Below, piece after piece: positions 29,348-52,806 of a stretch of 64,000 bases of DNA. How positions within the stretch are numbered: position 1 is the stretch's first letter; the number at the start of each line of letters is the position of its first letter. This DNA comes from Proteiniphilum acetatigenes DSM 18083. GTDB lineage: Bacteria; Bacteroidota; Bacteroidia; Bacteroidales; Dysgonomonadaceae. The position numbers were made by a program, and so were the translations under genes. The stretch spans positions 124,001 through 188,000 of the forward strand of contig NZ_KB905697.1 in NCBI RefSeq assembly GCF_000380985.1, in the 5' to 3' direction. The notes beneath the pieces were generated by a model. It was not told the DNA's origin. It saw nothing but the letters and a program-made list of their open reading frames with translations, and did no database searches.

Positions 29348-29716
29348 TTATTTCTCAAAGTATTTTTTTCTATTATTTGAGTGAATAGAAACGTGTATAA
29401 AATTACGTTTAGGATAATAGATTAGTTGATCTATTTCGTTTATCCTCTCTTTTAATTCAGATAATAATCCCTGAATATTATCAGATGTTATATCTGCTGC
29501 ATATCCTCATAAATGATGGGAACTATCAACACCACCAACAGCTTTATTAAGTTCTGGACATCTATATCCAGATGTTATTCTAAAGTCTATTTCTAATTCA
29601 TTAATAAACTGGAGAGTTTTATTTATATTCTGAATTATTACCGGATCAGTAGGATTATTATCTATCTTCAACCGTTTAGCGGTATCACTTCATATAAAGT
29701 CACTAAATTTTTTCAT
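29348..29716 (-). CDS. Peptidase M15-type endolysin (TGA-recoded)
   Basis: This 122-aa protein has the M15 D-Ala-D-Ala carboxypeptidase/endolysin signature: FRITSGYRCPELNKAVGG, then SSHHLWGYAADI with the zinc His and Asp, then FIHVSIH near the end. It would cut peptidoglycan cross-links at lysis. It contains TGA at codons 9 and 70. Under the standard code only eight residues would be made, so no lysin activity. The ATG overlaps the previous stop region, and the stop is TAA. Confidence 0.88.
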
Positions 29717-29717
29717 A

Positions 29718-30230
29718 TTACATACTTAATATTATTGATGAAAAATTAGACCATACAGGAGTAGTTTTATAAGCGTTTACAGATGTAGCAGGTACATATA
29801 TCTTCACATTTCCTATGTGACCTATATTAGCACCTAAATTTGAACTAAGAAATGGAGGAACTGTAGCTTTAATATATAATCCCTCCAAGTATGGAGTTTG
29901 ATTAAATGTAAGATCACCAATAGTTGTAATTGTTAATGGTAATCTTATTATCTTTAAGTTATCACAACCATTAAATGATCCATTTAATACTGCTATTCCC
30001 TCTGGAACTTCTATCTCTAAAGCATCAATATACCAAGACGGTCTGTTAAATGTAGTTCCAGAAATAAACGGCTCATTTAGTCCAATAGGAGTTGTAACTC
30101 CTGTGTCTTTATGGATTCAATAACCTACAGATTCATCACTGTAAACTAATTGATTCCCTTTATACACTTCTTTTATTTTCTGATTCCCATAGTAAATACT
30201 TTTTATCTTTTCATTTCCCTTATATATCAT
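29718..30230 (-). CDS. LRR_5 (BspA-like) tail protein (TGA-recoded)
   Basis: This 170-aa protein has short N-terminal repeats (YYGNQKIKEVYKGNQLVY) and a leucine-rich part with LPLTITTIGDLTFNQTPYL, then KIYVPATSVNAYKTTPVW. Such LRR_5 domains occur in the tail tips of Bacteroidetes phages and may bind surface sugars or proteins. There is one in-frame TGA, codon 38, in VGYWIHK; the other Trp codons are TGG. It sits between the fibre gene and the endolysin. Confidence 0.78.
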
Positions 30231-30232
30231 AA

Positions 30233-31951
30233 TTATTCTGTTATAAAATAAAACGTATCAGGATCTGGTGAAGATGGAAGTTCTGAAACTACTACTTGTT
30301 TAGGTATATTCTTACTATTTAACCAGTTGTTTAGCCTTTGTGCCGATACTAATCTACCTGTAGTAGATGTACCAGTATTAATTTCTGATTCACCCATTAC
30401 AACAGGAAATGAATCAACAGTTCCGTTACCTCTCAAATATTGAGAAGTAGTTCCTGTAGGAATATCAAATTTACCGTTTATGGCTGTCTGTAATCCCGTT
30501 ACTTGATCTATACTATGAGTATGGGAAGTATTAGCTTTACCATCTAAAGCTGCCTGTACAGCCGTTGAAATAGGTTTATTTAAATCTGAAGTATTATCAA
30601 CATTAGATAATCCTATATCTGATTTTGTAACAGTATGAGAATGACTAACAATATTACCAGTTAACTTAGCTTCTATCTCCGTTTTAGTAATATCAGAGTT
30701 TTTCTGTGCATTGGTGGGTGGTTTTGTACCAGTTATTTCACTATAACTATATGATGGTTTATTTTCAGTAATCCAACTGGGTTTTCCTGTAACAATATCC
30801 CAGGTTAAATTAATTTCTGTAGTACCTATGTGTTCCCAATTATTATCTATTCAGATATATTCATCTTTAACATTATTGGCTGTTCCTCCCGCTTTAGGTA
30901 CTAAATAAATTATATTCGATTCACCTATTGCTGGTAATACTTCTACGGATTGAATTTGAACAGATTGAACTGAACTTACTAAATCCTGAACTTCTTGCCT
31001 TGTATATGTTTCAGACTTTAAATAATAATTAGTAAGATTACCAACAGTGTTCTTTATAAATTCTTCATCATTATCTAATTGACTTATGGAAGAAGGAATA
31101 TCACCAACATTAGCTTTATTATTCCAGTTATTCTTATCTGAATCTGTTACGTGAATAGAATTATTATTTGAATGTGAATCAAATTCAGATTTAGATGCTT
31201 GTTGTATATTATCTACATTCCCCAATCCTATTTCAGCCTTTGAATAAGTAGGCTTTGTTAATTGTTTTGCCCAATCTGGAACAGTGGGATCACTTTCTAC
31301 TACGATATATCCAAAATCATTATCCAGTTCAGATACCTTAGTAGGAATAACTGGCTTATCGGATAAATCATTATAATTACCGGAAAACAAAGGAGTATTA
31401 ACAGGTAAAGCACCCACATCAGTAGCATTTAATATAACATCTCCTTTTTTTCCATTTACTGAAGATACATCACCACTACCAGAAGCACCACCTTTTAAGC
31501 TATCTAATCATTCCTGTTCAGTTCCTTGAAAACCATTCTTTACAGCAATTTCATAAGCAGATAAACCTCTTAATTCCTCCATTATTCCCTCATATACAAC
31601 TTTATCTTCAGGAACAATTATTTTACAGCTTTTATCAACCAATTCAAAAGCCTTACAATAATCTTTTGTGTAAGTTCTAACTATATCATCATTAATTTGA
31701 TATTGTAAGAATAGATCATATTCACCAGATACATTCAGGTCTTCGGCTAATATTTTTATCTGTAATCTATTATTGTCTTTATAAACAAAAGGTAATTCAA
31801 TTACTATATTTTTATTTTGTCTATGCCTTGCTTCTAACTTTATACTTGATCTTATAATATCAGGATCATCAAAGTTCTCTGGTAATTCGTACTTTCTAAA
31901 TATTACTCATTCTAAATCAATAATATCGGTATTTATTCTATATTGTTTCAT
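30233..31951 (-). CDS. Tail fibre / collagen-like adhesin (TGA-recoded)
   Basis: This 572-aa protein has a beta-rich base domain, then the phage linker motif GFQGTEQEWLDSLKGG, then repeats with KAEIGLGNVDN and KSDIGLSNVDN, then IWIDNNWEHIGTTEI and NTSHTHSIDQVTGL. In-frame TGA codons stand for the Trp of LEWVIF (codon 15), EQEWLDS (codon 148) and EYIWIDN; the last two positions are Trp in the common forms of these motifs. It probably forms a trimeric fibre at the tail tip. Confidence 0.88.
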
Positions 31952-32345
31952 CCTTATTTATTGCGTCATCAGTTTTATAAGTCCCCTTATCTGGTTGTCG
32001 TAAATTACAATCTTCAACTAAACAGATATGCTTTTCAGCATATTGTTTTTTTCGTTGTTCTCCTACTAATAGAAGTGTTAGGTGTTTGATCTTCTTAGAA
32101 TGTTCATCAACTTTTATTTCTAACTCGATTAATTTCTTTTGATAGGTATTAGTTTGTCTTTCTGCAAAGTCCTGAAATTTATCTGCAAACTCCAACATAT
32201 TTTTAGCAGCAGAAGCATCTTTATCTACAACATCAGAATTTTCTTTCTGTGTTCTTTGCTTTAAGAATTTAAAAAAGACAAAGATCGATCCACCACTAAT
32301 AATAAGTGTAGTAATGATTGTTGTTATTATATTTCCCCAATCCAT
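31938..32345 (-). CDS. Holin-like membrane protein with coiled coil
   Basis: This 135-aa protein has one N-terminal membrane helix (IITTIITTLIISGGSIFVFF), a coiled coil, and a Cys-containing tail (ICLVEDCNLR). Its place two genes before the endolysin and its topology suggest a holin or spanin-like role, but there is no diagnostic motif. It overlaps the start of the fibre gene by 14 bp. No TGA is used. Confidence 0.55.
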   Translation of the reverse strand: MDWGNIITTIITTLIISGGSIFVFFKFLKQRTQKENSDVVDKDASAAKNMLEFADKFQDFAERQTNTYQKKLIELEIKVDEHSKKIKHLTLLLVGEQRKKQYAEKHICLVEDCNLRQPDKGTYKTDDAINKDETI

Positions 32346-32362
32346 TATAATAATTATTTCGT

Positions 32363-33583
32363 TTATATCATACTTGTAACGTTAACAGATGTATTTCCTT
32401 CGTACATACCATTTCTAAAGTTAATAGAAACTGTTTCAGTTCGTTTGTCATTAACATTCTGTATATTAGTTCCATTTCTATCTAAAATATTTTGAACCCT
32501 AAAACCTATTTCAATAACTCCGTTATTTGCAGGAACTACGGGTGCTTGTATATATACACCACCAGTATCAGGATTAACTAAGCCAAATGAGAAGTAATTA
32601 GTATTTGCTCCCCAATATGTGGGATTAGCATTCATTTCCCAACCTTGTAGGGGGATTGTAATATTTTGATTTGTATAATTTTCTACTCTTACTTTAAATT
32701 GTAAACCTTTATTTGCAACAAGTGTTCCCATAGATGGATAATAAGGTATATCAATAAACGGTCCTCATTCTGCAAAAACAGCATCATTTGCAGATACTTT
32801 TGTAGGACGAAAACTTAAACCAGATTCATCTCTTAATATTATTCTACTTACATTATTATCATTATCACCTATTGGTAAAGGGCTAAATAATACTGCCGGT
32901 GTAATGTTATCTAACAATGTTAAGTCTGTTATTCTTGTATCACAAAGAACACTATAAAAATCAAGTGATTGTGGTGACATATTACTAAGCGGATATTCAT
33001 TGTTGAAATTAAAAGTAACAGTATTACCATATTCTGAAACACGTTGTGGTGCTGTTTTAATATAAGCCTGATTAAGCCATTCAAATACTACGGTATAGTA
33101 TAAATTACCAATAGATGTATTTAAATCATCAATTCTGATAATACTGGGATCATTTATTGGAGCAGTATTTTTAGTTCTATAAACTGGTTGCATAGTTAAC
33201 AACCCATTAACAGCTTTATTAACTGTTATAGTAGATGCCGGCATAGATGTAACAGGCGGTGTACCATCGTGATTATAGTTTCTAAAATCTCCTAATCTAA
33301 AAGGTTCATTAAAAGAACCACCTCTCGGTTTTATTCAAAACCACATTAAAGATGAAGGAATTAATAACTTATAATTAGTAGTTGCATTATAAACCAATAA
33401 TCCACAATTAGCATTTTGTAATTCCGATTCGGTAATACCTGTTACTTTATTAAGTCTGATTGGCTTTCACCTCGACCACTTGTTTATATTTTGATGAGTA
33501 CAAAGAGTACCCACATCATTACTACCTGAACCTATGGCAGATTTAACCATAGAAACAGTTATATTACTATTTGATAGTGCCAT
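32363..33583 (-). CDS. Phage structural protein, baseplate/fibre accessory (TGA-recoded)
   Basis: This 406-aa protein opens MALSNSNITVSMVKSAIGSG and has INKWSRWKPIRLNK, a motif I associate with structural proteins of Bacteroidetes phages. The rest is beta-rich. Three in-frame TGA codons occur: 33467 (SRWKPI), 33335 (MWFWIKP) and 32765 (AEWGPF). A TGG lies three codons before the first. The exact role is unknown, though its place among fibre genes suggests a tail-tip component. Confidence 0.75.
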
Positions 33584-33584
33584 A

Positions 33585-33776
33585 TTATTTAATTTTAAAA
33601 CAACTTACTTCACCATCTACTATAAGTGAACCTTCTACTGTAAGATCACCTTTTACTGTCACATCTCCTTTAATAGTACCAGATAAAGCTACTTGCTTTT
33701 CAACTGGAATTTCTTTAATTACTTCTTTGATTATAACTTTTTCTATCACTAAATCTACATCAAAGATTTTAGCCAA
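33585..33776 (-). CDS. Small beta-repeat protein between fibre genes
   Basis: This 63-aa protein starts at TTG inside the end of the fibre gene (8-bp overlap). It holds a beta-helix-like run of hexads (GTIKGDVTVKGDLTVEGSL) of the kind found in fibre shafts. It has no Trp and ends in TAA. It may be a small trimerising cap or a detached shaft piece. Confidence 0.55.
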   Translation of the reverse strand: MAKIFDVDLVIEKVIIKEVIKEIPVEKQVALSGTIKGDVTVKGDLTVEGSLIVDGEVSCFKIK

Positions 33777-36369: not shown

Positions 36370-36370
36370 A

Positions 36371-40239: not shown

Positions 40240-40240
40240 A

Positions 40241-40854
40241 TTATTTTAATTGTTTTGCAATTTCCTTGCTTTTGTTTTTTAATCTTTCAATATCATCTTT
40301 GCTGATATAAGTTTCCTTAGTATCTACATCCCAAGCAAACTTTAATATATCAGTGGGTTTTAGTTGTTTTGATGAATTAACTTGTGCTGTTATATAGCTA
40401 ATAAATCTGGTTTGTTCCCAGCTTTCTTTATACTTCCGGTTTATACCTTCAACTATAACAGGGATTTCGTAAAACTCCATTTTATTCAGAAAATAATCTG
40501 GACTGATACCTAATTCTATAACAGCGATCTTATATAGTTCCGTGATGGTTAATTCTTTTTTTTTGAATCATCCGTATCTTCAGATTCTTCACTTTTAAAT
40601 AAGGTTTGTTTGTTCAACTCTTTAACCAATCATTCCCTGAAGGTTGAAAATAATGCAGGATCATCATCACATACATCAATAAACTCATCAAATGATAAGT
40701 TAAATTCATTATTAGCCAGTAACACACAATAGAAAAGAAGATATTCAGAATATAGACCTTCAAACTTGAATGGTTTATCTGTTATTCTCTCATAAATGAA
40801 TAATGCTTTTATCGTGTATTTCAGGGTATATTCTTTATTGTTGATTGTAATCAT
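40241..40854 (-). CDS. Tail assembly chaperone, -1 frameshift product (GT analogue)
   Basis: A run of nine A (40556-40564, minus strand) precedes the stop of the upstream chaperone frame. A -1 slip at A-AAA-AAG moves the ribosome into an open frame that begins KKELTITELYKIAVIELGI and runs to 40241, ending KEIAKQLK. The downstream part is the T half; an internal ATG at 40480 could also give a separate protein. The arrangement, just before the tape measure, is the classic gpG/gpGT one. The fused protein is about 204 aa. Confidence 0.75.
40549..40854 (-). CDS. Tail assembly chaperone, zero-frame product (G analogue, TGA-recoded)
   Basis: This 101-aa protein starts at ATG 40854 (MITINNKEYTLKYTIKALF). 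It has one in-frame TGA (40630-40632, FREWLVKEL) and ends in TAA at 40549-40551, just past the A9 slippery run. It would coat the tape measure during tail assembly. Its size and position fit the family. An upstream TTG would add three residues and is less likely. Confidence 0.8.
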
Positions 40855-40897
40855 AATATTCAAATTAAAAAGAAAGGGAACTTAATCCCTTTCTATA

Positions 40898-41362
40898 TTA
40901 TGCTTGTGTATATTTTGAAAGTTCTCCAGATCCAGCGAACGTTACAGAATAAGTAGCATTATCACCGTCCGGTGCATTAACACTAATATTAGTAATATAT
41001 GCTTTCCCTTTTAAACCTTTACCGTTTGCTCCACCTTTTGGAGTCCATCCGGCAGAAGGAACTACTGTACCATCAGGATTTTCTACAGGTGCTTCTTTTG
41101 CAATATCAAATACTACATCTACTGCTGTCCCAGCTTTCCAAGCTGTGAATAATACTGTAAAATCTTCTTCTGTATAAAGGTTATCAGAACTCATCTCCCA
41201 ATTAAATTTAACTGGTTTTGTTGCTTCTCACTTGCCGTGATCTTTTGAACTGATTGAACTTGTAGTAGACCCTAAAGTTAAACTACAACTGGTTGCATAG
41301 GCTAATGATTTACCATCTTGAAACACCATCAGATCAGTTCCTTTTACTATGTTATTTGCCAT
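40898..41362 (-). CDS. Major tail tube protein (TGA-recoded)
   Basis: This 154-aa tube subunit has SISSKDHGKWEATKPVKFNW near residues 38-57, a hallmark of tail tube proteins in these phages, with TGA (41228-41230) at the conserved Trp. ITNISVNAPDGDNATYSVTF at the end is also typical. Other Trp codons in the gene are TGG. It lies between a tail-completion gene and the chaperones, as expected. Confidence 0.92.
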
Positions 41363-41363
41363 A

Positions 41364-41714: not shown

Positions 41715-41715
41715 A

Positions 41716-42162
41716 TTATTTGTGTTTTAATCTTACTCTTACAATGGATTCTAAAATAATATTATCCATTTCAGTAAATATTTGACTTTCGGTCTGATAT
41801 TGTGCATCCCTAAAGAAATACCGACCTTTGATCTCGCCCCTATTATAACCTTTTCTTGTCTTTCTTATCTTAGTACCCTTTTCAAAGAATTTCAACCTAA
41901 AATCACCCATAATATGAACTGTAGATTGTGTAGCATCCCTATCTATTGATGCTTTTATTCCAGATGCTAAAGATTTTCCCGTTTTAGAAGATCTTTTAGT
42001 AATAGAACCTTTGATAATAGACCTTAGATTTGATTTAGTCTGATTGATAAGAATAGCAGAACCTTTTCTTAATGCTTGCCTATAGACATTCTTCTGTTCC
42101 TTGCTGGTTAAATCGGCAAACAAACCAAGTACCTGCTTATCGTCTACGGTTATGTTATTCAT
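41716..42162 (-). CDS. HK97 gp10-like neck protein
   Basis: This 148-aa basic protein has ALRKGSAILINQTKSNLRS and HIMGDFRLKFFEKGTKIRKT, as in the HK97 gp10 family (head-tail joining). The ATG overlaps the end of the head closure gene by 8 bp. It contains no Trp and no TGA and ends in TAA. Confidence 0.85.
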   Translation of the reverse strand: MNNITVDDKQVLGLFADLTSKEQKNVYRQALRKGSAILINQTKSNLRSIIKGSITKRSSKTGKSLASGIKASIDRDATQSTVHIMGDFRLKFFEKGTKIRKTRKGYNRGEIKGRYFFRDAQYQTESQIFTEMDNIILESIVRVRLKHK

Positions 42163-42472
42163 TGATTAAACTTGCTATAATAGTTTTGTGATTCTTTTGT
42201 CTATCTGGAACTATCGATTCAATCCTATATAGTTTATCATTCCATCTGATCCTGTCAAATTCGTTTACATTATGGTAAAACCTGATTCCAAATTCAACCG
42301 TATAGTTATTTACTATCTCATTATTTTCTACAGTCCGTGATCCTGTGCTTTGATATACAGATGATCTTGTGGTTATATAGTCTCTTCAAATAGTAGTAGT
42401 TGCTCCTGAATCGGATTTTGTAACAGTAGACCGTACTATAGTTATTGTCTCGTTAAGTTTTCCAGCTATCAT
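42155..42472 (-). CDS. Head closure / head-tail adaptor protein (TGA-recoded)
   Basis: This 105-aa protein begins MIAGKLNETITIVRSTVTKS, as in SPP1 gp16-like closure proteins. The conserved 'TTxW' position is a TGA (42386-42388, TTTIWRDY). The rest has FDRIRWNDKLYRIESIVPD with a TGG Trp, typical of the C-terminal beta barrel. Order in the cluster fits. Confidence 0.85.
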
Positions 42473-42474
42473 AT

Positions 42475-42771
42475 TTAATTATAATTTTTATGGATTGATA
42501 CTAATAGTTCTAATGTATATGGTATTTTACTAACTGAAGAATAAGCTACAGGTTCTCTGTTAAGATACCAGTTCCCGATAAGCAGCAGCATAGAATGTTT
42601 AATAGCAGGTGGAAGATTGCCACCCACTATTAAATCATCTATATTTTGATTGATTGAATGTTCAACTGCTTCTTTGGCAACTAAAATTAAAGATTCTATA
42701 TAATTATCATCTGTAGTAAATTCTTGATCTATGTTAAGATGTTGTTTTACTTCAGAAATTGATAGATACAT
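42475..42771 (-). CDS. Head-tail connector, gp6-like
   Basis: This 98-aa helical protein starts MYLSISEVKQHLNIDQEF and has VAKEAVEHSINQNI and HSMLLLIGNWYLNREP, the pattern of HK97 gp6-type connectors. It would sit under the portal. It has one TGG Trp and a TAA stop, and no TGA. Confidence 0.87.
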   Translation of the reverse strand: MYLSISEVKQHLNIDQEFTTDDNYIESLILVAKEAVEHSINQNIDDLIVGGNLPPAIKHSMLLLIGNWYLNREPVAYSSVSKIPYTLELLVSIHKNYN

Positions 42772-42773
42772 AA

Positions 42774-43913
42774 TTAAGCCAATATTTTAGCTACAAACGA
42801 ATTTCTTTTCTTTACAGCATCAAAGTAAGCGTTAACTACTAATCTTACTTTTCCGTCTTTTGCAACAGTATAAGGATCGACAGTAATATCTAACCCTCCT
42901 CATTGTGCTATGACAAGATCAGAAAAATCACCAGCAATTACACCTTTACTTACAGCAGCAGTTGTTACAAATGCAGGATAACCATCTACTTCATTATCTT
43001 GATATGCTGCTCTACCGGTAATCATTTCAATTCCTTTGAAAGCAGATTTTGCTTTAGGGGACAAGATGTATTTTTTGTTTTGTACATTCTTTTCGTCCAA
43101 TGCTTCATCTAATCCATTTACTAATTCTTCATCAGCAGGATCTGTTTCAGGTGTCACACCTACAAACATACCAGCGGGTTGTGTGTCAGAACCGGCAACA
43201 GAACCAAGAATAGTAGATTCCAATTTTACGGCAATAGCTTTAGCAATATCATCTCTTAATACAGCTTCAGCATCAGCCGATTCTTGAATAAGGAATTGTT
43301 TAGATACATCTACATAAGCCGTTAATCTTTTAGGTTTAAGGATAACTTCAGCTAACGATCCAGCACCATCAGCAGCAGAAGCAGTTTCACCAGCCCAAGC
43401 TACATTAGTTCCTGAATAAGTGGGGATTCCAACATTACCGGCTAAACCACCCATATAAGTAGCACCGGCATTTACCAGAACCAAGTTAGATTTTAATGCT
43501 GTAACAAGATCAACAGTATTTTTTTCAATTCCAGCACCGGAAGCAGCAGTAATATCTGCTCTTAATTCCATAGGAATAACTACATCCCCGTTTACTGGTT
43601 GTCCTGCTTTTCTTAATTCTTCCTTACCAAGATTTATAACTTCTTCTACAGCCTCATCTTGATTTCTTTTATTAACTACGTTGTTAATAGTTTTAATTAA
43701 TGAAAATTTTTCCATAATTGTTTGTTTTGTTTCTTTATTAAGTTGATTAATTGTGTCATTTAGATTTCTCAATTCATCTGTTAGTGTTTTAAAATCTGTA
43801 TCTTCTTTTTCGGTTAATTTCCTTTGTTCTTTTTCAGCAGAATTAATAAGATTATTAAGTTTTTCCTGCACTTGATTTCGCTGATCTATAACCTGTAATA
43901 AAGATTGTTCCAT
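42774..43913 (-). CDS. HK97-fold major capsid protein (TGA-recoded)
   Basis: This 379-aa protein has an N-terminal coiled-coil scaffold arm of about 85 residues, to be removed by the protease, then the capsid fold (NVGIPTYSGTNVAWAGETAS, LKPKRLTAYVDVSKQFLIQE). The C-terminal motif AQWGGLDITVDPYT uses TGA (42900-42902) for the Trp that is fixed in homologues. An earlier Trp is TGG. The ATG overlaps the protease stop. Without recoding the last 42 residues are lost. Confidence 0.95.
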
Positions 43914-44491
43914 TATTGTATTTGATTTCTAAGGTTAATAAAATAATTATCTAACTCTTTTTTAAGTGCTAATTCTTTAGATTCTTCAATTGCTTTTAAT
44001 GATCTTTGAGCTACAGTAGTCTCATCATAAGCAGGATTAAATACAGGACTAACATCAAACAATAGATTAAACTGTTTAATTGTCCTTAAATACATTCCAT
44101 CATCTAATGGTTTTCATTCATCATCCTGAACTGTAAAAGCAAATGAACTTCCGGTAATATCTTCTCTCCTTAGATATTCTAATAGTTCATCTCCTAATGC
44201 AGTTTTAGGTGCTTCAAATAAGTATCTTAATCCTATATCATCAACAGCTAAAACTAAAGATCCTTTACCGTATTTACTTCTACCTAAAACACCTCTATCT
44301 TCATTGTGATCTAAGTAGCAAAAAACATCTGATCTTTCTATTACACCTGTTAATGAATGAGGTTCTATAGTTTCTATAAAACCCCCTAAATCTTTAGAAT
44401 AGGTATTTCACAAAATCGCATAACCTTCAACTAATCTACTATCAGTTGATACACTAATATCAGATGTTATACTTCTCTTTTCTTTATTCAT
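43913..44491 (-). CDS. HK97-family prohead protease (TGA-recoded)
   Basis: This 192-aa serine protease has VEGYAILW at the start, the catalytic His in FCYLDHNEDRGVLGR and Ser in DITGSSFAFTVQDDEW, then LLFDVSPVFNPAY. TGA codons (44408-44410 and 44114-44116) are Trp in GYAILW and DDEWKPL; the second is a usual Trp site. It trims the capsid arm. It overlaps the portal gene by 8 bp and the capsid start by one base. Confidence 0.93.
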
Positions 44492-45689
44492 TTGTTTTTA
44501 GATTAATAATATTATCTACCGTACTTGTATTTACTTGAATAAAGTTGTTATCTCCGTTTTCCAGTTTTGGTAGATTTAATTCTTTTCTGATCTCATTGAT
44601 TGTTATTGCTCCAACATTAAATAGTTTATTGTAATATTCAGCTAAACTGTTTTTATCAACTCTCAATAAACTTGTTTCATTAAATTGAATATCATACTTC
44701 ATTCTTTCAGATGGCAACAATAATTTACGCTCTAATTCCAGTTCTAAGTTCTCTAATAGTGGTGATAAGGTATCAGTTAAGAAAGCTAATTGTGTAGCTT
44801 CAACAGTTGAATAATTAGCTTTAGTAAGATCAAATACTTTAATAGGCGATACTCCAAAGAATCTACAAATATCAACTACATTGAATTGCCTTGTTTCTAA
44901 TAATTGTGCATCCGCTGGATTAATAGTTATCGGTTGAAAATCCATATTACCCTCTAATACCGCTATTCCATTAGGTGTACCAGTAATCGGGTCAAATGTA
45001 TCTTGCCAGCTATTCTTTATATCCTTTTTCTGTTTATCAGTTAAGGCTGTATCTACTTTTAATATTCCAGATAGATTAGCACCATTTTTAAAAAATCCTG
45101 AAGCGTGTTTTTCAGAATTAGCTGATAATGAAATAGTATTAGCAGCGTGTTTAAGTACTGATATGCCATTTACACCATCAGTAGAATAATTTAAGAAATG
45201 TAATATATTATATGAATTAATTGGTTTATCATCTATATAATACTTTCCTGATTTTATTGTAACATCATCATTATCTATTAATTCTAACTTAATAGGTAAT
45301 TGTGTGTTCTTATCTCTTATTATCTTGACAAAAGCATTACCTTTTAATAATATTAAAGCAATTATCACTTTAAAAAAGGTATATCTTGTCATATACTCAT
45401 TAGGTTCTGTTCCTAATAATATTGCAACTTGATGATCCCTGTTCTTAGTTCTAAATCCTTCTTCATCTACAGAATATAATTCTATAGGTAATTGTGCTAC
45501 TGAAGAACTGATTACTTCTACACACCTATATACTGTACTTAATTTTAGTGCCTGATTCCCGTTGTTATTAGAGCCTAAATAATTTAATGATACAGTAGCG
45601 GTATCATAGTTCCTTGTTTCCGGTACTTCAGGTATTTGTTTATCTTCTTCAGGTTTATAAGACCTGAAAAAATCTCTTCATTTACTCAT
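44484..45689 (-). CDS. HK97-family portal protein (TGA-recoded)
   Basis: This 401-aa portal has STVYRCVEVISSSVAQLPIE, then GNAFVKIIRDKNTQLP, NFVVDI-type loop in RQFNVVDICRFFGVSPIKVF, and YSTVEATQLAFLTDTLSPLL, all family features. TGA at 45678-45680 is codon 4 (MSKWRDF). Under the standard code only three residues would be made from this start. The ATG lies one base from the terminase stop. It forms the DNA entry vertex. Confidence 0.94.
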
Positions 45690-45690
45690 T

Positions 45691-47331
45691 TTAAATTGTG
45701 TTTGAATATTTTGGTATTGTTAAATAACCACCTAAAGCCATTAATATAGATATTACACCATCTATCTTTTTACTATCTAAATACTTTACTGGTTTAAGAT
45801 TTCCGTTATGATCGGATTTAATGGTAACATTGCTAAAGCAAAATCTGGTTATTTCATTATTATCAATTGTACACTTCTTTGACAATATTAATCTTTCCAA
45901 TTCTTTAGTAGGTCTATTGAAATTGGCTATATTTTGTGCATAAGGTTCTAATGGTAGTCCTTTAGCTGTACAATCTATTGCCCACTGTGTAGAATTGTAT
46001 GGATCATAAAATATCTTTTGAATATTAAGTGTTTTTTTAATACTCATAATATCATTAGTTATATAGTCATAATCCGTTACATTCCCCGGTGTTATGGTTA
46101 AACAGCCTAATCTTTTCCAGAGTTTATATGTCTCTTTAAGTGATTTTTCTACTAATGCCGATTCTGGTAAATAATAATGTACCTTTAATAATAATTTATC
46201 CTCTTGTGGTATTAAGATAGATAAGGCTGTAAGGTCTGAAGTTGCCCCTAAGTCAACACCCAAATAACAAGAATGATTTTTATAATCATCTATGTTTATT
46301 GATTCAGTAGCTTCTATTATGTAAAAATCCGGTATCCATACTTCTGAAGAATCACACCAGATATTAAGGTTCTTTGTTTTTACGCCTACCTCTTCAGACG
46401 GATTATTCTTTGCTTTTTGAATCTGTTCTTTAAGGAATTTTCTCGATACGGTAATATCTAATGATGGATTTGCTTTAATCCAGTTATTTTCATTATCCCA
46501 TTCGTCATTTTCATCTAATTCATAGATTGAAATAAAGAATGAATCATCTTCTTTTAGTTTATTCAGAATTTCTACACCTACTTCACGTAATTTGTAACAG
46601 GGATAAGACTTATTAAAACCGGATGTTGTTATAACTACCAATAACGGGTTATCCCTCATACCTTGTGATGAAGCTATAAGATCCTTCATTTTATTGTCTG
46701 GTGCTTCGTGGAACTCATCTATCAGTCCAAAAGAGCAGTTATATCCGTCACCGGTTTTAGATTCACTGGATAATACCTTTAACTTTGAATTAGTTAGATT
46801 TAATAGTATTGAATCTCTATATACTTTAAGGTTTTTAGATTTAGGATCAATTTGTTTTGTAAGAGTATCACATATTTTAAAATCAACCTCTTTAGCCTGT
46901 TCTCTCGAATTTGCCAATAATAAAACTTCCGCTGCTGGTTCTCCGTCCGCTATTAAAAAATACAAACTAAGCGCACCCGCCCAAAAACTCTTTCCGTTCT
47001 TTCTTGCTACTTGTATGTAAGCATTGGTAAACCTTCTCCTATTATCTTTAGTCCAATAAAAGCCAATTAAATTAGCAGTAATAAAACTTTGTCACGATAA
47101 TAATACAAATGGTTTTCCATTATGTGATCCGGTATAATGTTTGAATATCTGAATAAATTCAATAGCTTCATCTACTTTTTGATAATCAAAATAAAATCTA
47201 TCATCATTAAGATCATCTAAAAATCTTTGTGCTGCTAACTTTATTAATTTACCAGCTACTATTTTACCACTAATAACATCAACAGCATAATTATAATAAT
47301 CTTTTCCGTTTATACTGTTAATAATACTCAT
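45691..47331 (-). CDS. Terminase large subunit (TGA-recoded)
   Basis: This 546-aa motor-nuclease has the adenine-binding motif KPFVLLSWQSFI with TGA (47092-47094) as the conserved Trp, Walker A as VARKNGKSFWAG, Walker B in FGLIDEFHE, and the nuclease motif YLGVDLGATSDLTALS. All eight other Trp codons are TGG. The length is that of Terminase_1 members once the TGA is read through. The ATG overlaps the end of the small-subunit gene. Confidence 0.96.
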
Positions 47332-47699
47332 TATCTTGTTTCCTTTTTACCTTTAATAAATTCCTCTAATGGTGAATCTTCTGAATCTTTTGTTTTTGCT
47401 TTTACCGATGTTCTGGATTTTAGTGTTAATCCAAATTCTTTAAGTATAGATAAGCATTGTATTTGAGCATCTTTGATAATTTTAATTCGTGGGTTTGGAT
47501 TTAAGTTACCCTGTACATTAGTGATAACCATATCTTCATCTTTCAAAATATCAGATTGTCTTATAAATACGTCATAGTTATATTCTAACATACTTAGCGC
47601 ACCGGAATCTATACCTTCCAATCCCTGTACTTGTTCTAAAACGCTTTTCATAAAGTCTCTGGTACGGTGTGTTAGACCTTTACTCATTGTATATTCCAT
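47331..47699 (-). CDS. Terminase small subunit (P27 family)
   Basis: This 122-aa protein has VITNVQGNLNPNPRIKIIKD and LKEFGLTLKSRTSVK, the P27 small terminase pattern that selects phage DNA for packaging. It starts the late minus-strand operon. It has no Trp. A second in-frame ATG four codons later is also possible as a start. Confidence 0.87.
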   Translation of the reverse strand: MEYTMSKGLTHRTRDFMKSVLEQVQGLEGIDSGALSMLEYNYDVFIRQSDILKDEDMVITNVQGNLNPNPRIKIIKDAQIQCLSILKEFGLTLKSRTSVKAKTKDSEDSPLEEFIKGKKETR

Positions 47700-48035
47700 T
47701 TCCCTTTAAATATTTGTATTTTGTGTTTTTATATTTTGATTATCTGGTTTAATAGTGTCTCTGGTGTGTTATATAAAGATTATCAATAGTTTATACTTTT
47801 AATTTCAGCGATTCACTATCTTTGTATTATCAAATTAAGCAATGATTTTTTATCATCAAAAACACACCTAAAGTATTATAACTGTATTATTTTCCAGTAA
47901 ATCATTTAAAACGTGTTTCTATATATTTGATTGAATTTCTACAATTATTATCCTCTCTACGATAGAGCCAGTGATAATGTACGTACACTAAATAATGAAT
48001 TGTGTGGTAACTATAACTATTTAAAATTATAATCT
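47700..48035. promoter_or_regulatory. Divergent control region between late and early genes
   Basis: This 336-bp gene-free region separates the minus-strand late operon from the plus-strand early operon. Plus-strand elements TATCTTTG (47817-47824) and TATATTTG (47922-47929) fit TAnnTTTG. I did not find a clear late promoter on the minus strand. A palindrome at 47978-47987 lies just before the first early gene. Confidence 0.55.
47978..47987. promoter_or_regulatory. Candidate operator (palindrome)
   Basis: TGTACGTACA is a perfect 10-bp palindrome about 50 bp before the ribbon-helix-helix gene. It is a plausible binding site for that protein or another phage regulator; no second copy was found by eye. 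Confidence 0.35.
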
Positions 48036-48179
48036 ATGGAACAACTAAGAGACAAAAGGTGAGGAATGAGACTAAATGCAGATGAATGACAAATGTTAGA
48101 AGACCTATCCAAGAAATACAAAAAAGATAAAAGTGTAATAGTAAGAACATTAATATATGACCTATGAAAAAAGATTTAA
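48036..48179 (+). CDS. Small ribbon-helix-helix-type protein (TGA-recoded)
   Basis: This 47-aa protein reads MEQLRDKRWGMRLNADEW then MLEDLSKKYKKDKSVIVRTL, which fits a ribbon-helix-helix DNA-binding fold (strand, then two helices). TGA stands at codons 9, 18 and 44. Under the standard code only eight residues would be made. The third TGA overlaps the ATG of the next gene (ATGA), and the true end is TAA four codons later. It probably regulates early or late transcription. Confidence 0.72.
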
Positions 48180-48631
48180 CTAAAGAAATAGCTTTACAAT
48201 ACATCTATGATTATGGAGTAGATAAAGCAGCAGAGTTATTAAAAATAACAAGAATAGAATTAAATAAAGTTATATCAGATAAAGTAACTGAAGATTGAAA
48301 TAAACCCTGTTTAAATAGAAATGCAAAAGTAGAATATCTCAATCCAGTAATATCGGATTTTGTAGAAAAGAATTATAACAAATTACACGCTGAATATGTA
48401 AAGAATCTAACTACAGATATATTCTATCAGAATGATGAAGATATATTTCATAATGCACTTATAAAAGTCTGTTCTGATCTCTCTAATCCGACCGAAGAAA
48501 CAATATTAAAGCTATTTGATAAAACCTTTAAAACAATCAAATGAAGAAATAGTAAAGAAAATAGCGAAATGAGAAAGAAGGAGAAAAATATTAAATATGA
48601 TAATCAGGATGGAGAAAAAGAAGATGAATAA
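48164..48631 (+). CDS. HTH-like early protein (TGA-recoded)
   Basis: This 155-aa protein has an N-terminal helix-turn-helix-like segment (YDYGVDKAAELLKITRIEL), a helical middle, and a charged C-terminal tail. TGA codons at 48296 (TEDWNKP) and 48542 (TIKWRNS) are read as Trp. Short helices such as IFHNALIKVCSDL recall sigma-like factors, but I cannot assign it. It overlaps both neighbours, so the early genes form one operon. Confidence 0.6.
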
Positions 48632-49190
48632 TTCAGGAATTTATGTATTTGAGACAAAATACCATTTTTATATAGGATGTAGCAAACAATTAGATAAAAG
48701 AGAAGAAAGACATTGGTATGAACTTATTAACCTTATACATCGTAATGATTATATGCAGAATGTATATAATGCCGGATATGACTTTGATTTTAGAGTTTTA
48801 GAATATTGTCTTGAATCGGAATTAGAGATTAAAGAAAAAGAATGGTTTAATAAATACTCTAATGAGAATAAACACAAGAAAGCATTAAATTTAAAAGAAT
48901 GTGGTAAACGTCCAATTCATTCTTATGATACGAAGGTAAAGATAAGTAAAAAGAAAGCTAAAAAAGAATATAATTTTAATCAAAGATATACAGTATATGA
49001 CTATAATACAGAAGAATTACTATTCATTGGTAATCTATTAGAAGTAAGTAAATACTTAAATTTACACTTAAGAGAAATATTAGAAATAAACAAAATATGA
49101 TCCGATAAACTTAACACTCATATATTTATAATAGAAGAATTAGAATTTATTCCATTAGATGAACAAATTGATTTTACCGATTTACTATAA
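48624..49190 (+). CDS. GIY-YIG endonuclease (TGA-recoded)
   Basis: This 188-aa protein has the GIY-YIG pair in SGIYVFETKYHFYIGCSK, then a conserved-type Arg and a Glu-rich helix, and a C-terminal repeat-like DNA-binding region (YTVYDYNTEELLFIGNLLEV). It resembles homing endonucleases. TGA at 49098-49100 is Trp in NKIWSDK; the stop is TAA at 49188. ATG 48624 was preferred over an earlier ATG at 48609 because it overlaps the previous gene only slightly and has a GGAG upstream. Confidence 0.8.
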
Positions 49191-49195
49191 CACTT

Positions 49196-49492
49196 ATGCC
49201 AACAATAAATAAACCAACTAAAAAGAAAAATACTCCAACAGTTAACGAACAAATAAGAAGAAGTATTTATGATACTAAAAAATGACGAGATCTCCGAAAA
49301 GCTAAACTAATGCAGAATCCACTTTGTGAAAAGTGTTTTGAAAATGGTATAATTACAGCAGCCTGCGATATTCACCACATCATCTCTTTTGTTGATATTA
49401 CAGATAATCTAAGAAGATTAGAGATAGCCTATGATTTTAATAACCTACAATCACTTTGCAAGAAATGTCACCAGAAAATACACAATCAATAA
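49196..49492 (+). CDS. HNH endonuclease (TGA-recoded)
   Basis: This 98-aa protein has YDTKKWRDLRKAKLMQNPLC, then EKCFENG, DIHHIISF and LCKKCHQKIH. This is the phage HNH nuclease with two CxxC zinc pairs. The Trp of KKWRDLR is nearly invariant in the family and is a TGA here (49283-49285). Such nucleases help terminase cut DNA during packaging. It ends in TAA and overlaps the next gene. Confidence 0.92.
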
Positions 49493-49662
49493 TACTAAAA
49501 TACGGATTTAAAGATATATATAACGGTCTTATATTTGAAAGAGATACATTCACTCTAAGAATATCTGATGGTGAATTTGAAATATATTGTGATCCTGAAT
49601 ATGATTTAAGATATTATCACGGAAAAATAGATCAGTTAGAAGATGTATTAAACGATCTTTAA
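49465..49662 (+). CDS. Small early protein of unknown function
   Basis: This 65-aa acidic protein starts at ATG 49465 inside the HNH gene and has YGFKDIYNGLIFERDTFTLR and YCDPEYDLRYY. I do not recognise a family. It has no Trp. It ends 7 bp before the tRNA, so the tRNA may share its transcript. Confidence 0.55.
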   Translation: MSPENTQSIILKYGFKDIYNGLIFERDTFTLRISDGEFEIYCDPEYDLRYYHGKIDQLEDVLNDL

Positions 49663-49669
49663 ACCATTT

Positions 49670-49765
49670 GCGGATGTTTACCTATTTGATAATAGGACTG
49701 ATCTTCAAAATCAGAAGCTGTAATTCCAACCTACAGTTATCAGGGCTTAAAACCTTGCATCCGTG
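49670..49765 (+). tRNA. Putative UGA suppressor tRNA (anticodon UCA), selC-like shape
   Basis: The acceptor GCGGATG pairs with CATCCGT. The D arm is a 6-bp stem with a TGAT loop. The anticodon arm CTGAT-CTTCAAA-ATCAG gives UCA. A long variable arm has 5 Watson-Crick pairs plus flanking pairs and a 9-nt loop. The T arm CAGGG-CTTAAAA-CCTTG is unusual in its loop, with no TTC. The discriminator is G. The D arm and variable arm resemble tRNA-Sec or class II tRNA. Reading the stem as 8+4 bp, with U-G at the eighth pair, is also possible. It is the only UCA anticodon arm I found in the prophage. Confidence 0.8.
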
Positions 49766-49769
49766 CAAT

Positions 49770-49792
49770 AGCTACATAATAATAGCTTTTTA
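49770..49792 (+). terminator. Weak terminator after the tRNA
   Basis: AGCTA at 49770-49774 pairs with TAGCT at 49783-49787, followed by TTTTA. It lies 5 bp after the tRNA and may end its transcript, though the stem is short. Confidence 0.4.
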
Positions 49793-49954
49793 GACAAGAA
49801 AATCAATACTCCGGTATATCAGAAAATTATTTTTAACAAATTTTCATAACCGATTAAACCTTATTGATTATCAATAGTCTAAGTAATATAACAAAACGCT
49901 ACAAACACTTATTATTAAAAGTAGATTTCTACCGACAGATAACCACAAAATTAG

Positions 49955-50012
49955 TATGTTTGTTAAGATAAGATCAGCTAAATCAACTCTGGTTGATCTT
50001 ATCTTCTTTTTT
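49955..50012 (+). promoter_or_regulatory. Promoter element followed at once by a strong hairpin
   Basis: TATGTTTG at 49955-49962 fits TAnnTTTG. A 12-bp stem (AAGATAAGATCA at 49965-49976 with its complement at 49994-50005) follows with a CTTTTTT tail, a good terminator shape. If the promoter is used, the transcript would start inside the stem. The rest of the gap to 50273 holds no gene I can see, so it may be a long leader for the helicase gene. Confidence 0.45.
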
Positions 50013-50273
50013 AGAAAAGCACAATCCCCGAAAACATCATTATAACCACAGGTAAAAATAGGGAGTTTGACTACAAAAATAAAATATCATCTTCTACTAT
50101 ACTAATTAAAACAATTACAGATAAAACTATAAAATACTATACATAAAACCTACATAGATAGGTTATTTTTTGAAAAAGAATGTAACCAAATTTTCACAGG
50201 GTACTAAGAAAAAATATGTTCAAAAAAAGTGACATACAAATAACCAATATAAACATTAATATAATAACTTAAT

Positions 50274-52031
50274 ATGAAAATTTTAACCGTTCCGAATGAA
50301 TTAATAGAACAAAAAGCACTTAAAAATGAAAAGATATATCTAAGTGATTTAGATGAATTTAAAGATAATAATTTATCAATATTATACAATACAGTATTTA
50401 ATAAAGGTGTAACTGGTATAGGTGGGACATCATTAGCTTTAGATAGTAAAGAGAATATTATAATAGTTATGCCGTTTGTTGAGGTTGTAAACAACAAAGA
50501 AGGATATAACGAAGATGTATTTACAGTAAAAGAAGGAGTTACTATTGCAGCTATAAAGAAGTATTTAAAGACCACACCAGTAAGAAAAATAGTTTCTACT
50601 TATGACGGACTTTCAAAAATATTAGAAGCTTATAAAGCAGTTGAAATTAATCCTTATGATGATTTCTTATTAGTTGATGAGTGGCAAGTAATATTTAATC
50701 AGTATGGACTTAGATTAAAGGTAATGAAGTACTTACTTGAACAATCTACACTATTTAGTAATAAATGCTTTATGACTGCAACTCCAATTAAAAAAGATTA
50801 TTGGTTTAAAGAATTAAAAGGACTTGAAGAACTCGTTCTTGAATATGATATTGAACCAACAATAGTAAAACATTTTAAATCAAGAAATGTAATTGACGAA
50901 GTAATAGCTATTATTAATAGTAAAGATTCTAAGAACCTTCATTTCTTTATAAATTCAGTTGATATGATTAAATCAGTTATTAAGACCTTGAATATTGATA
51001 AATCAGATGTGAGAATCATTTGTTCCAAACAAGAAAAAAATGAATATAAATTATCTGGATATGATATAGAGAGTACAAAAGATCCTGTAAAACCTATAAA
51101 TTTTTATACTTCTACTTGTTTTGAAGGTTGTGATATATTTGATAGGAACGGACAAATATTTGTTATCTGTAATGGAAATAAAGCACATTCACTTGTAGAT
51201 ATATCTACTACTTTACCACAAATAGCAGGTCGAATCAGAGATATAGAAGATGGAACAATTAATCTTATTTATTCATCGAGTAGATATATTGATATTACAG
51301 AGGAAGAATTTAATAAAAAGGTAGATGAAAACATACAAAAAGGAAGAAATATAATTGAAGAAGTAAAGAGTAAAGATACTATAGAAGTGTTATCAGATTG
51401 GAAAATTAATGATAGATATTTAATTATTGAAGATGATAAACTTATATTTGAAGAAGTATTGCTCAATGTAGATAAAGCTAATTTTGAAACGTCTAAAACC
51501 TATTCATTTAAAACTAACTTAAATAGAAAACTAAATCAATCAGATAAATTTTATTCTGTTATTATTGAAAAACCTTGGGCTGAAGAATATATAAAGTTTG
51601 AAGAAGAAAAGTTTAATAGTTTATCCTTCAAAGAAAAATGTTTATTATATGCTAATCTTTCAGATATGACCTTTAGTTATGTTCCTGATTTCCCGAAAGA
51701 AGTAATAGAGGCAGTAGATATATTAGGAATAGATAAATTAGAAGAACTGGACTATCATAAAGGTAATATAAATAAATATTTAGTTTCAAGATTAAATACT
51801 ACGGATGAAATGAAAGTAATGAAACTTTTAAAACTAACAAAAGGAGAATTTTATAAATCTTCTGATCTTAAAAATAAACTTACTGATATATACAAAGTAT
51901 TGAAGTTAAATAAGGCAGCCAAAGCAACAGATATTAAAACATTTTATGAGGTAAAAGAAACTTCAAAAAGAATAGATAATAAAGTATATAAAGGATATAT
52001 AATAATAACACCCAAAATAATTTTCAAATAA
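50274..52031 (+). CDS. SF2-like DNA helicase of phage type
   Basis: This 585-aa protein has a P-loop-like GVTGIGGTSLAL near residue 45, motif II as FLLVDEWQVIF, motif III as CFMTATPIKK, a second RecA lobe with FINSVDMIKS and YTSTCFEGCDIFD, and motif VI as LPQIAGRIRDI. The Walker A lysine is not apparent, which I have the impression is common in this phage group. It is probably the replication helicase. All Trp codons are TGG, there is no TGA, and the stop is TAA. Confidence 0.8.
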   Translation: MKILTVPNELIEQKALKNEKIYLSDLDEFKDNNLSILYNTVFNKGVTGIGGTSLALDSKENIIIVMPFVEVVNNKEGYNEDVFTVKEGVTIAAIKKYLKTTPVRKIVSTYDGLSKILEAYKAVEINPYDDFLLVDEWQVIFNQYGLRLKVMKYLLEQSTLFSNKCFMTATPIKKDYWFKELKGLEELVLEYDIEPTIVKHFKSRNVIDEVIAIINSKDSKNLHFFINSVDMIKSVIKTLNIDKSDVRIICSKQEKNEYKLSGYDIESTKDPVKPINFYTSTCFEGCDIFDRNGQIFVICNGNKAHSLVDISTTLPQIAGRIRDIEDGTINLIYSSSRYIDITEEEFNKKVDENIQKGRNIIEEVKSKDTIEVLSDWKINDRYLIIEDDKLIFEEVLLNVDKANFETSKTYSFKTNLNRKLNQSDKFYSVIIEKPWAEEYIKFEEEKFNSLSFKEKCLLYANLSDMTFSYVPDFPKEVIEAVDILGIDKLEELDYHKGNINKYLVSRLNTTDEMKVMKLLKLTKGEFYKSSDLKNKLTDIYKVLKLNKAAKATDIKTFYEVKETSKRIDNKVYKGYIIITPKIIFK

Positions 52032-52032
52032 T

Positions 52033-52188
52033 ATGACAACGGACAAATTAAAAGAATGCTTAGAACTAATTGGAGAAGTAATAACAATAAAAATTAAAGA
52101 TCGAGATTTACACAGATTAAATGATGAAGTAATAGATAAAATACATACAGATGTAGATGAAAAAGAATGTTCTATTTCATTTGAATAA
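52033..52188 (+). CDS. Small early protein of unknown function
   Basis: This 51-aa protein (MTTDKLKECLELIGEVITIK...) follows the helicase by 1 bp and ends in TAA. It is Lys/Asp/Glu-rich with no Trp. It looks translated because of the tight spacing on both sides. No family is recognised. Confidence 0.5.
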   Translation: MTTDKLKECLELIGEVITIKIKDRDLHRLNDEVIDKIHTDVDEKECSISFE

Positions 52189-52195
52189 TAAAATA

Positions 52196-52660
52196 ATGAA
52201 TAAATTTACAGAAGCAGAAAACATAGGTAGAAATAATTTCAAAAGTTGATTAGAAGCTATTGGAGTTACAGACTATGAATTTACAGAAGATACTTATAGC
52301 ACCATAGATTGTAACTTTATCTATGAAAGCTATACATTTGCAGCAGAAATAAAAGTAAGAGATATAAAGTTCAAAGATTATCCTACTCATTTTATGGAAC
52401 TGGATAAATACAATAGAATGACTGAATTAATAGATAATAATTTGATTGATTCAGGTATATATGCAAACTTTTTTGGTGATGATTACTTATATATCTACAA
52501 CTTATCCAGAATAGATAAAAACCAGATCAGCATTATAAACGCACCAGTTACCTCTGCTGAAGATAATGGAAGAAGGAATAAAACAATGATAGAAATATCA
52601 ACTGAAAAAGCACAAATATTTAAAAAGGAAAACGACAAATGAATAAAATTAAAAGCTTAA
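52196..52660 (+). CDS. Early protein of unknown function (TGA-recoded)
   Basis: This 154-aa acidic protein starts MNKFTEAENIGRNNFKSWLE with TGA (52247-52249) as Trp. A second TGA (52640-52642) overlaps the ATG of the next gene as ATGA, and reading through it adds six residues before TAA at 52658. The middle (YSTIDCNFIYESYTFAAEI) is beta-rich. No family is recognised. Confidence 0.6.
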
Positions 52661-52806
52661 TAAAGCACCTCTGAAAGAACTACAAAGAAATAATTATAAT
52701 GATTGGATTAGTAACAATCCTCTATTATCCAACATATTTAGGAATTAAAAGAATATATGATAATTTTGCAGATAAAATAGAACTAACAATAAAGCTAAAT
52801 AAATAA
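52639..52806 (+). CDS. Small membrane protein (TGA-recoded)
   Basis: This 55-aa protein has one TGA at codon 12 (KHLWKNYKE) and one membrane helix (IIIMIGLVTILYYPTYLGI). It overlaps the previous gene by 22 bp and ends 2 bp before the next ATG. The function is unknown. Confidence 0.5.

Follow-up and report, generated by a model that had tools for sequence, protein, structure and literature searches.

Recoded prophages lodged in bacteria that use the standard genetic code were reportedly described by Borges et al. in 2022. A paper of 2023 likewise presents, in its available text, some prophages that use an alternative code within standard-code bacteria (PMC10746230). In crAss-like and other phages that read TGA as Trp, the TGA codons stand at Trp positions of structural proteins, the hosts keep the standard code, TAA serves as the stop, and code switches occur across short phylogenetic distances (parts of PMC7886860 and PMC12386605). 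As to the decoders, the accessible portion of one survey gives a UCA suppressor tRNA for 11 of 73 predicted code-4 phages, many of these 73 infecting hosts that are themselves on code 4 (PMC11210395), and the two crAss-like papers propose, in the sections available, that the suppressors are extremely divergent and hence undetected (PMC7886860, PMC12386605).

The locus studied here lies in a window of 64,000 nucleotides, the whole stretch analysed, from Proteiniphilum acetatigenes DSM 18083, and holds a tailed-phage prophage of ~29.7 kb (about 25,324-54,994) inside a TonB receptor gene. The receptor gene is in two pieces (left, 24,957-25,328; right, from about 54,991) which, when rejoined, match the unsplit gene of a genome of the same genus (G053) at 91% over residues 1-272. 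A GATG repeat stands at both edges (25,320-25,323 and 54,991-54,994), and the prophage is poorer in GC (largely 25-37%) than most of the host DNA on either side (about 41-47%); the exact end positions are those that we infer. A large serine recombinase (53,255-54,925, minus strand) matches the PHROG 95 integrase (E 3.8e-83) and the Pfam Resolvase and Recombinase domains; it has no internal TGA and three TGG codons, and its own stop is TGA. With this recombinase, and with a broken host gene of which G053 has the intact copy, the element is a temperate, siphovirus-like phage of small size (~30 kb) with a serine integrase.

Across the whole prophage there are 38 in-frame TGA codons in 24 of the 36 ORFs; taking the ATG at 48,597 as the start of ORF 48516 lowers the count to 37. 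The initial annotation had counted 34 in 21 genes between 29,348 and 52,806; our recount over that span gives 36 in 22 ORFs, and TGA-containing ORFs start further left, from 25,611. All eight motifs that it had named as Trp sites do sit on TGA codons. The prophage ORFs terminate in TAA (33), TAG (2) or TGA (the integrase), and its description of the host as standard-code also holds, as the 20 host ORFs examined in the window have no internal TGA and four of them use TGA as the stop.

On the minus strand, TGA is found at codon 80 of the terminase large subunit (45,691-47,331; PHROG 9, E 1.1e-152), in a column that is W in 139 of 163 homologous residues; at codon 4 of the portal (44,484-45,689; PHROG 12, E 6.1e-107); and at codons 28 and 126 of the head maturation protease (43,913-44,491; PHROG 80, E 6.1e-38), where the column at codon 126 is W in 119 of 125 and that at codon 28 is F in 114 of 125. 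It further occupies codon 338 of the major capsid protein (42,774-43,913; PHROG 617, E 6.6e-40; W in 88 of 95), codon 29 of the head closure protein (42,155-42,472; PHROG 25, E 3.9e-14; Y in 26 and W in 18 of 49), codon 45 of the major tail (tube) protein (40,898-41,362; PHROG 1407, E 2e-19; W in 43 of 64), and codons 9 and 70 of an endolysin-like peptidase (29,348-29,716; PHROG 894, E 2e-22). The terminase small subunit (47,331-47,699; PHROG 83, E 3.1e-18) is free of TGA. On the plus strand, five early ORFs (48036, 48164, 48516, the HNH ORF 49196, and 49456; together 48,036-49,662) carry eight TGA codons in total, or seven if ORF 48516 begins at 48,597, and the column at codon 30 of the HNH protein is W in 108 of 108. 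TGA had initially been assigned to the lytic genes; it is indeed present there, but because the early-strand genes have it as well it is not limited to them, and the integrase lacks it altogether.

The residue for which TGA stands was assessed by scoring alignment columns, requiring at least three homologous residues, which left 21 of the 35 TGA positions submitted. In these 21 columns W accounts for 573 of 935 residues and is the best-scoring amino acid (+31.5), followed by F (+5.2) and Y (+4.8), with S at -27.0 and C at -29.7; the control codons behaved as expected of the standard code (TGG to W, TGT to C, TCA to S, CAA to Q). A smaller set of residues gave W 84 and S 2 out of 137. The claim that TGA encodes Trp, for which this alignment had been the proposed check, is thus supported, and judged by its codons, columns and host code the element is predicted to be a code-4 (TGA = Trp) phage. 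In this it is like the prophages of PMC10746230, with an alternative code in the prophage and a standard one in the host, and like the TGA-to-Trp phages of PMC7886860 and PMC12386605, as far as the available text describes them, in its structural Trp positions, host code and TAA stop. A TGA-recoded prophage in its host context has been found, as annotated, but its rarity is weaker than claimed, since part of PMC10746230 already provides the precedent. What sets the element apart from the crAss-like and other TGA-to-Trp phages is that it is small (~30 kb), siphovirus-like and temperate, integrates by a serine recombinase and has a candidate suppressor tRNA of class II, and it is this candidate decoder that appears to be the new part.

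The prophage appears to have its own oddly shaped tRNA, missed by standard gene finders: a 96-nt class II element with a UCA anticodon at 49,670-49,765 on the plus strand, first spotted by eye. It has a 6-bp D stem with a 4-nt loop, a 26-nt variable region, G73, and a T loop (CTTAAAA) unlike the usual TTC form. Its minimum-energy structure is the cloverleaf (z -3.87), computed with an 8-bp acceptor stem, and acceptor/T stems of 7/5 fit equally well as 8/4. A cloverleaf scan, written only after the candidate had been seen, gave it a score of 31, against 24 or less in seven shuffles of the prophage; over 2,855,851 bases (2.86 Mb) one other tRNA reached 31 and the best unrelated match 26. An earlier script, which admitted variable regions of at most 25 nt, had missed it. 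ARAGORN, and Rfam at its gathering cut-off, reported no tRNA in the prophage, nor did Rfam at E <= 10 over 24,500-56,800; on 161 bases around the candidate the Rfam tRNA model scored 27.5 bits (cut-off 29), aligning only part of the element. A UCA anticodon is absent from the 48 host tRNAs found; one of the host searches, in which 150 of the 236 candidates were scored, failed to list the class II element, so that another divergent host suppressor could be missed by it.

A homologue of the candidate, the other tRNA that reached a scan score of 31, is present in a TGA-recoded prophage of Bacteroides neonati (L137:7060-7152). In a hand alignment of 29 base pairs, 12 are changed on both sides, three on one side, 13 are the same and one is broken; folded alone, the homologue is weaker (z -1.04). 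A model built from the pair (R1), run over 393 genomes of the order with stricter filters and ten candidates scored in each genome shown, returned the candidate's own genome alone at E <= 1e-7; without filters its best E on the sets of two recoded relatives (L074 and L076) was 0.42. A sequence pattern found four stretches in viral_contigs, namely the two known tRNAs and two others (L247, L248), the latter rejected as further members in that they form no cloverleaf. With Rfam at E <= 1 there was no match on L074, L130, L152, L153, L154, L160 or L194, and the one match on L076 resembled an S15 leader and was set aside as due to chance. The tRNA of the L155 phage scores 45.9 bits with Rfam, and its anticodon arm is uncertain because its own minimum-energy fold (z -0.39) is not a cloverleaf. 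The phage relative MT835917 has no in-frame stops.

What the sequence itself shows is the TGA codons and their alignment to Trp, a host on the standard code, the cloverleaf, and its counterpart in B. neonati; transcription of the tRNA, its charging with Trp, decoding and any regulatory role are what we infer. Our favoured reading, to which we give a probability of about 0.7, is a temperate phage that uses TGA for Trp and brings its own class II UCA tRNA, charged with Trp by the host TrpRS, in a manner dependent on induction. The phage would spell Trp as TGA in its structural and lysis genes and in several of its early ones, and supply the UGA-reading tRNA itself; during lysogeny this tRNA would be silent and TGA a stop. 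Once the phage is induced, the early strand would produce the tRNA, which would compete with release factor 2 for UGA, insert Trp there and allow the late proteins to be completed.

The strongest competing account, though unlikely, is that TGA is read as Trp by the host tRNA-Trp(CCA), through near-cognate readthrough or a weakened release factor 2, and that the element is some other structured RNA. The genome has no canonical UCA tRNA, and three TGA-recoded relatives (L074, L076 and L152; 40-46 kb of each covered) yielded no UCA tRNA above the shuffle level, so that some route without a recognisable UCA tRNA may exist. Against this, the cloverleaf of the element is complete, its anticodon is UCA and a second TGA-recoded prophage has a homologue of it, and several genes have two or three TGA codons each, from which weak readthrough would be expected to give little full-length product.

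If the element is indeed a decoding tRNA, its identity leans toward Trp. By alignment score, tRNA-Trp is the closest of the 48 host tRNAs by a small margin (51.0, next 45.5); by identical letters tRNA-Leu (52) and tRNA-Ser (50) come before it (48). The anticodon arm has 14 of 17 letters in common with host tRNA-Trp, against 12 for the next-best host tRNA, and after its own targets R1 matched tRNA-Trp(CCA) next in all nine loci checked, 21 other genomes having been matched. The host tRNA-Trp(CCA) (L002:2212-2285) has G73, U72, C2-G71, G3-C70 and G4-C69 as in the candidate; it is of class I, whereas the candidate has a long variable arm, the 6-bp D stem, UCA and the unusual T loop. Ten bacterial Trp positions are given in the accessible part of the Table of PMC9976931: the candidate has G73, G3-C70, G4-C69, C35 and A36 (5/10) and fails to match at the other five, where it has G1-U72, C2-G71, A5-U68, U9 and U34 (5/10). 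The host tRNA-Trp itself also carries C2-G71.

Charging with Ser, by which TGA would yield Ser alone or a mix of Ser and Trp, is a less probable outcome still. G73 and the long variable arm, both present in the candidate, are serine features too, and tRNA-Sec-like allo-tRNAs are Ser acceptors (available sections of PMC9976931 and PMC7609411). Yet S scores strongly negative at the TGA columns, which test the point indirectly, and the candidate has U72 and C2-G71 where bacterial tRNA-Ser has C72 and G2-C71, C2-G71 being a negative element for E. coli SerRS (PMC9976931, in part). Charging with Trp by the host TrpRS remains the preferred, sequence-derived prediction.

That the prophage is a decayed relic and its TGA codons nonsense mutations is very improbable. 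A single transition turns TGG into TGA, and many TGA codons are at ancestral Trp positions, but the frames are open throughout, with no internal TAA or TAG in 9,363 codons, just as the initial annotation had asserted. The log10 probability that all 37 stops would be TGA under single random mutations is -21.5 (uniform) or -23.3 (transitions), and ten other relatives have several in-frame TGA each, mostly at Trp positions of the prophage studied.

The candidate resembles tRNA-Sec and allo-tRNAs in its long variable arm and its long D stem with a short loop, and shares UCA with tRNA-Sec; it departs from those systems in its TGA columns, which are Trp rather than Ser or Cys, and in a host without SelA, and may do so in its acceptor/T stems, which fit 7/5 as well as 8/4 where allo-tRNAs have 8/4 or 9/3. 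Cys is the usual stand-in for Sec. A true selenocysteine tRNA, with TGA as Sec, is scarcely credible: the homologue gives 41.7 bits with Rfam tRNA-Sec (RF01852), under the cut-off of 47, the candidate itself is not reported by that model, C is the worst of the scores quoted above, and SelA was absent from the host genome (0/1) and from three hosts of related prophages (0/3), with E. coli positive as the control.

A limited literature search, covering parts of PMC8629427, PMC7609411 and PMC9976931, found no phage class II UCA Trp tRNA. We tentatively suggest, at somewhat less than even odds, that the UGA suppressors of this family are deviant, taking the form of a class II tRNA-Trp with a tRNA-Sec-like D arm here and in B. 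neonati, and of a tRNA with a collapsed anticodon stem in L155. If true, it would give the first Trp tRNA of class II, and deviant shapes would explain some of those TGA-recoded phages for which suppressor searches come up empty; a shape that evades tRNA finders may help to account for the seeming absence of decoders. The element offers a concrete candidate for the divergent-suppressor idea, directly testable because it is integrated and its host genome is known. Should a class II tRNA carry Trp, it would bring something new on the tolerance of TrpRS and a lead for orthogonal UGA suppressors.

Promoter and terminator scans gave results at chance level. Downstream of the tRNA, a 16-bp hairpin followed by a U tract (49,965-50,005; fold -19.1 kcal/mol, z -4.27) is a possible terminator, which the terminator scan, with its loop limit of 8, did not return. 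Beyond it lies a 585-aa ORF (50,274-52,031, plus strand) with no TGA, four TGG codons and a Walker-type motif; it matches nothing in PHROG and nothing above the cut-off in Pfam, relatives of it were found, and it reads as helicase-like. Overall, the early strand has 10 TGA to 7 TGG codons, against 27 TGA to 51 TGG on the late strand (Fisher p = 0.098).

Low in GC, the integrated tailed phage splits a TonB receptor gene into 24,957-25,328 and 54,991-56,718, with a GATG repeat at the prophage ends; the joined receptor flanks match the uninterrupted gene of a same-genus genome at 91% over residues 1-272. PHROG matches encompass terminase, portal, protease, capsid, connector, tail, fibre, endolysin and HNH genes, and profile matches identify the integrase as a large serine recombinase. 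Of the prophage ORFs scanned (30 against PHROGs, 10 against Pfam), none matched a release factor or a tryptophanyl-tRNA synthetase (TrpRS). The same prophage is recorded in IMG/VR as 2518645612_000001. In its divergent early/late region lies TATCTTTG (47,817-47,824), which we take to resemble the Bacteroidetes -7 box; the frequency of this motif over the window is at chance level.

The 36 prophage ORFs contain 38 internal TGA codons, distributed over 24 of them, alongside 61 TGG codons, and none of their 9,363 codons is an internal TAA or TAG. These counts uphold the initial annotation, which had reported 34 in-frame TGA codons in 21 genes and never TAA or TAG. Translation with code 4 joined many broken frames in the window, and the ORFs terminate in TAA (33), TAG (2) or, for the integrase, TGA (1). 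The late and early ORFs together hold 37 nonsense codons; under single-mutation models, the log10 probability of every one being TGA is -21.5 to -23.3. The host was rightly described as using the standard code: among 20 host ORFs examined within the window, none carries an in-frame TGA before its stop, and four end in TGA. TGA makes up 0.39 of the prophage Trp codons, as against A-ending shares of 0.72 to 0.87 in seven other codon families, and is thus still rarer than composition alone predicts. Its assignment to lytic genes holds for the late genes, but early genes carry TGA too, so that a model restricted to late genes is unsupported.

The residues opposite TGA were read from tblastn alignments to the comparison loci, with 25 TGA-phage proteins plus the integrase as queries. 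A first set gave W in 84 of 137 cases, F in 31 and S in 2. A larger set comprised 172 loci free of in-frame TGA, at least four of which (L066-L069) had no homologue and some of which overlap each other; here W accounted for 573 of 935 residues at the 21 positions, of 35 given, that had at least three residues (ORFs 25611, 27339 and 33585, named by window start, were left out). The proposal that many TGA codons fall on Trp positions of homologues is supported by the column scores (W +31.5, F +5.2, Y +4.8, S -27.0, C -29.7), which are not independent evidence counts, the compared sequences being akin to each other. By the same method the control codons returned their own residues (TGG, W; TGT, C; TCA, S; CAA, Q). 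Some TGA columns depart from Trp: protease column 28 is F in 114 of 125, and residues are mixed at g41364 column 60 and in the tape-measure columns.

Neither ARAGORN nor Rfam reported a tRNA in the prophage. On a 161-base input the Rfam tRNA model matched 49,672-49,742 at 27.5 bits (cut-off 29), and a candidate UCA tRNA of 96 nt (49,670-49,765, plus strand) was first recognised by eye as a cloverleaf in the gap 3' of ORF 49456. Its arms, likewise delineated by eye, are an acceptor stem GCGGATG/CATCCGT, a D arm CCTATT-TGAT-AATAGG, an anticodon arm CTGAT-CTTCAAA-ATCAG with anticodon UCA, a variable arm containing GCTGTA/TACAGT, a T arm CAGGG-CTTAAAA-CCTTG and the discriminator G73. Folded alone, the element forms a cloverleaf at -27.7 kcal/mol (z -3.87). 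A cloverleaf scan, written only after the element had been spotted, scored it 31, against at most 24 in prophage shuffles. Across 2,855,851 bases, repeated copies included, nine rows scored 31-32, all of them copies of this element or of a UCA tRNA in a Bacteroides neonati prophage (L137:7060-7152), and the next score was 26 (three rows).

The B. neonati prophage has 5 TGA codons, opposite W (4) and S (1) of the window prophage, and 37 TGG. With the arms of the two tRNAs aligned by hand, 12 of 29 pairs are changed on both sides and still paired, and one is broken. The D and T loops read TGAT and CTTAAAA in the window element versus TGG and TTCGAGT in B. neonati, and the 19-56 pair would be kept, as A-U and G-C, respectively. 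The terminase large subunit (TerL) of the latter prophage (L137:8,419-10,001) is split near codon 293 by about 1.6 kb, perhaps an intron or intein.

A further UCA tRNA (Rfam, 45.9 bits) adjoins a homologue of the 585-residue early-strand ORF 50274 on the TGA-recoded contig L155 (1496-1565, minus strand), where ARAGORN missed it; its anticodon stem has only three pairs in the cloverleaf scan, and folded alone it gives no clear cloverleaf. Identical copies lie on L254 (8341-8411), L255 (11895-11965) and L257 (6598-6668), which are likewise TGA-recoded. No UCA tRNA was found in the TGA-recoded L074 (42 kb covered), L076 (46 kb) and L152 (40 kb) by the cloverleaf scan, by a covariance model of the window and B. 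neonati tRNAs or by an Rfam search of the loci without added flanks, nor in the TGA-recoded prophages or contigs grouped with them (L227-L232), which points to either more divergent tRNAs or another route in the first three. L076 and L152 have a different gene in place of the ORF-50274-like one; near that place both have a non-coding stretch that is conserved and contains a GGTGC-TTT-GCACC hairpin (L076, about 3,510-3,640; L152, about 6,690-6,800, minus strand).

Aligned to 48 host tRNAs, all three UCA tRNAs score best with tRNA-Trp: the window element 51.0 (next 45.5), that of B. neonati 56.5 (51.5) and that of L155 49.5 (44.0); by identical letters, tRNA-Trp is not nearest to the window element. 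Searched against 101 family genomes, a covariance model built from the first two had matches in 22 (E <= 0.01); outside the host's own genome its best matches reach about 40 bits, and all nine loci checked are tRNA-Trp(CCA). By the table in PMC9976931, the window element has five of ten Trp identity positions and lacks two Ser acceptor features, C72 and G2-C71; C2-G71 is there a negative element for SerRS. SelA was not found in the host or in the related-prophage hosts checked. TrpRS is the sister enzyme of TyrRS, whose substrate tRNA-Tyr belongs to class II in bacteria; by analogy, TrpRS may tolerate the long variable arm.

The most likely mechanism would switch decoding on at induction. In the lysogen the candidate tRNA would be silent and UGA would be read as stop, leaving late proteins short, with portal ending at codon 4 and endolysin at codon 9. 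Upon induction, early-strand transcription from 48,036 onwards would run through the tRNA, which can rise first since it requires no translation, and would then let TGA-bearing early and late messages be read. The integrase, with no internal TGA and a TGA stop, would function in both states.

Use of an alternative code by prophages of standard-code bacteria is already known: PMC10746230 states it, citing what is probably Borges et al. 2022; a class II UCA tRNA tied to Trp, not found in the openly accessible literature searched, is the candidate new variant here. A decoder often escapes detection, according to PMC11210395 (found in 11 of 73), PMC7886860 and PMC12386605.

Among the matches listed, TerL relatives from viral and genome collections, with codes called from in-frame stops, include at least ten apparently TGA-recoded loci besides prophage copies (L055, identical to L137, L074, L076, L130, L152-L155, L160, L194) and at least 17 apparently TAG-recoded ones, most others being without in-frame stops. 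In a FastTree tree of 158 TerL (131 standard, 16 TAG, 11 TGA) that of the window forms a group (support 1.0) with three relatives, two TAG-recoded and one of standard code, which argues that codes switch at short distance; the remaining TGA members lie elsewhere, some nodes being weakly supported. Similar short-distance switching is described for crAss-like phages in PMC7886860. ARAGORN detected a CUA tRNA in five of 15 TAG-recoded loci given (L039, L078, L156, L157, L173) and a UCA tRNA in one of six distinct TGA-recoded relatives, that of B. neonati. On L260 (1904-2195), a contig that also has a relative of ORF 50274, CUA, Thr and Ala tRNAs follow one another. Close TerL relatives (49-55%) occur on MAG contigs labelled Oscillospiraceae (L080), Mycoplasmataceae (L097) and Lachnospiraceae (L138), possibly misbinned; the others are mostly Bacteroidales prophages.
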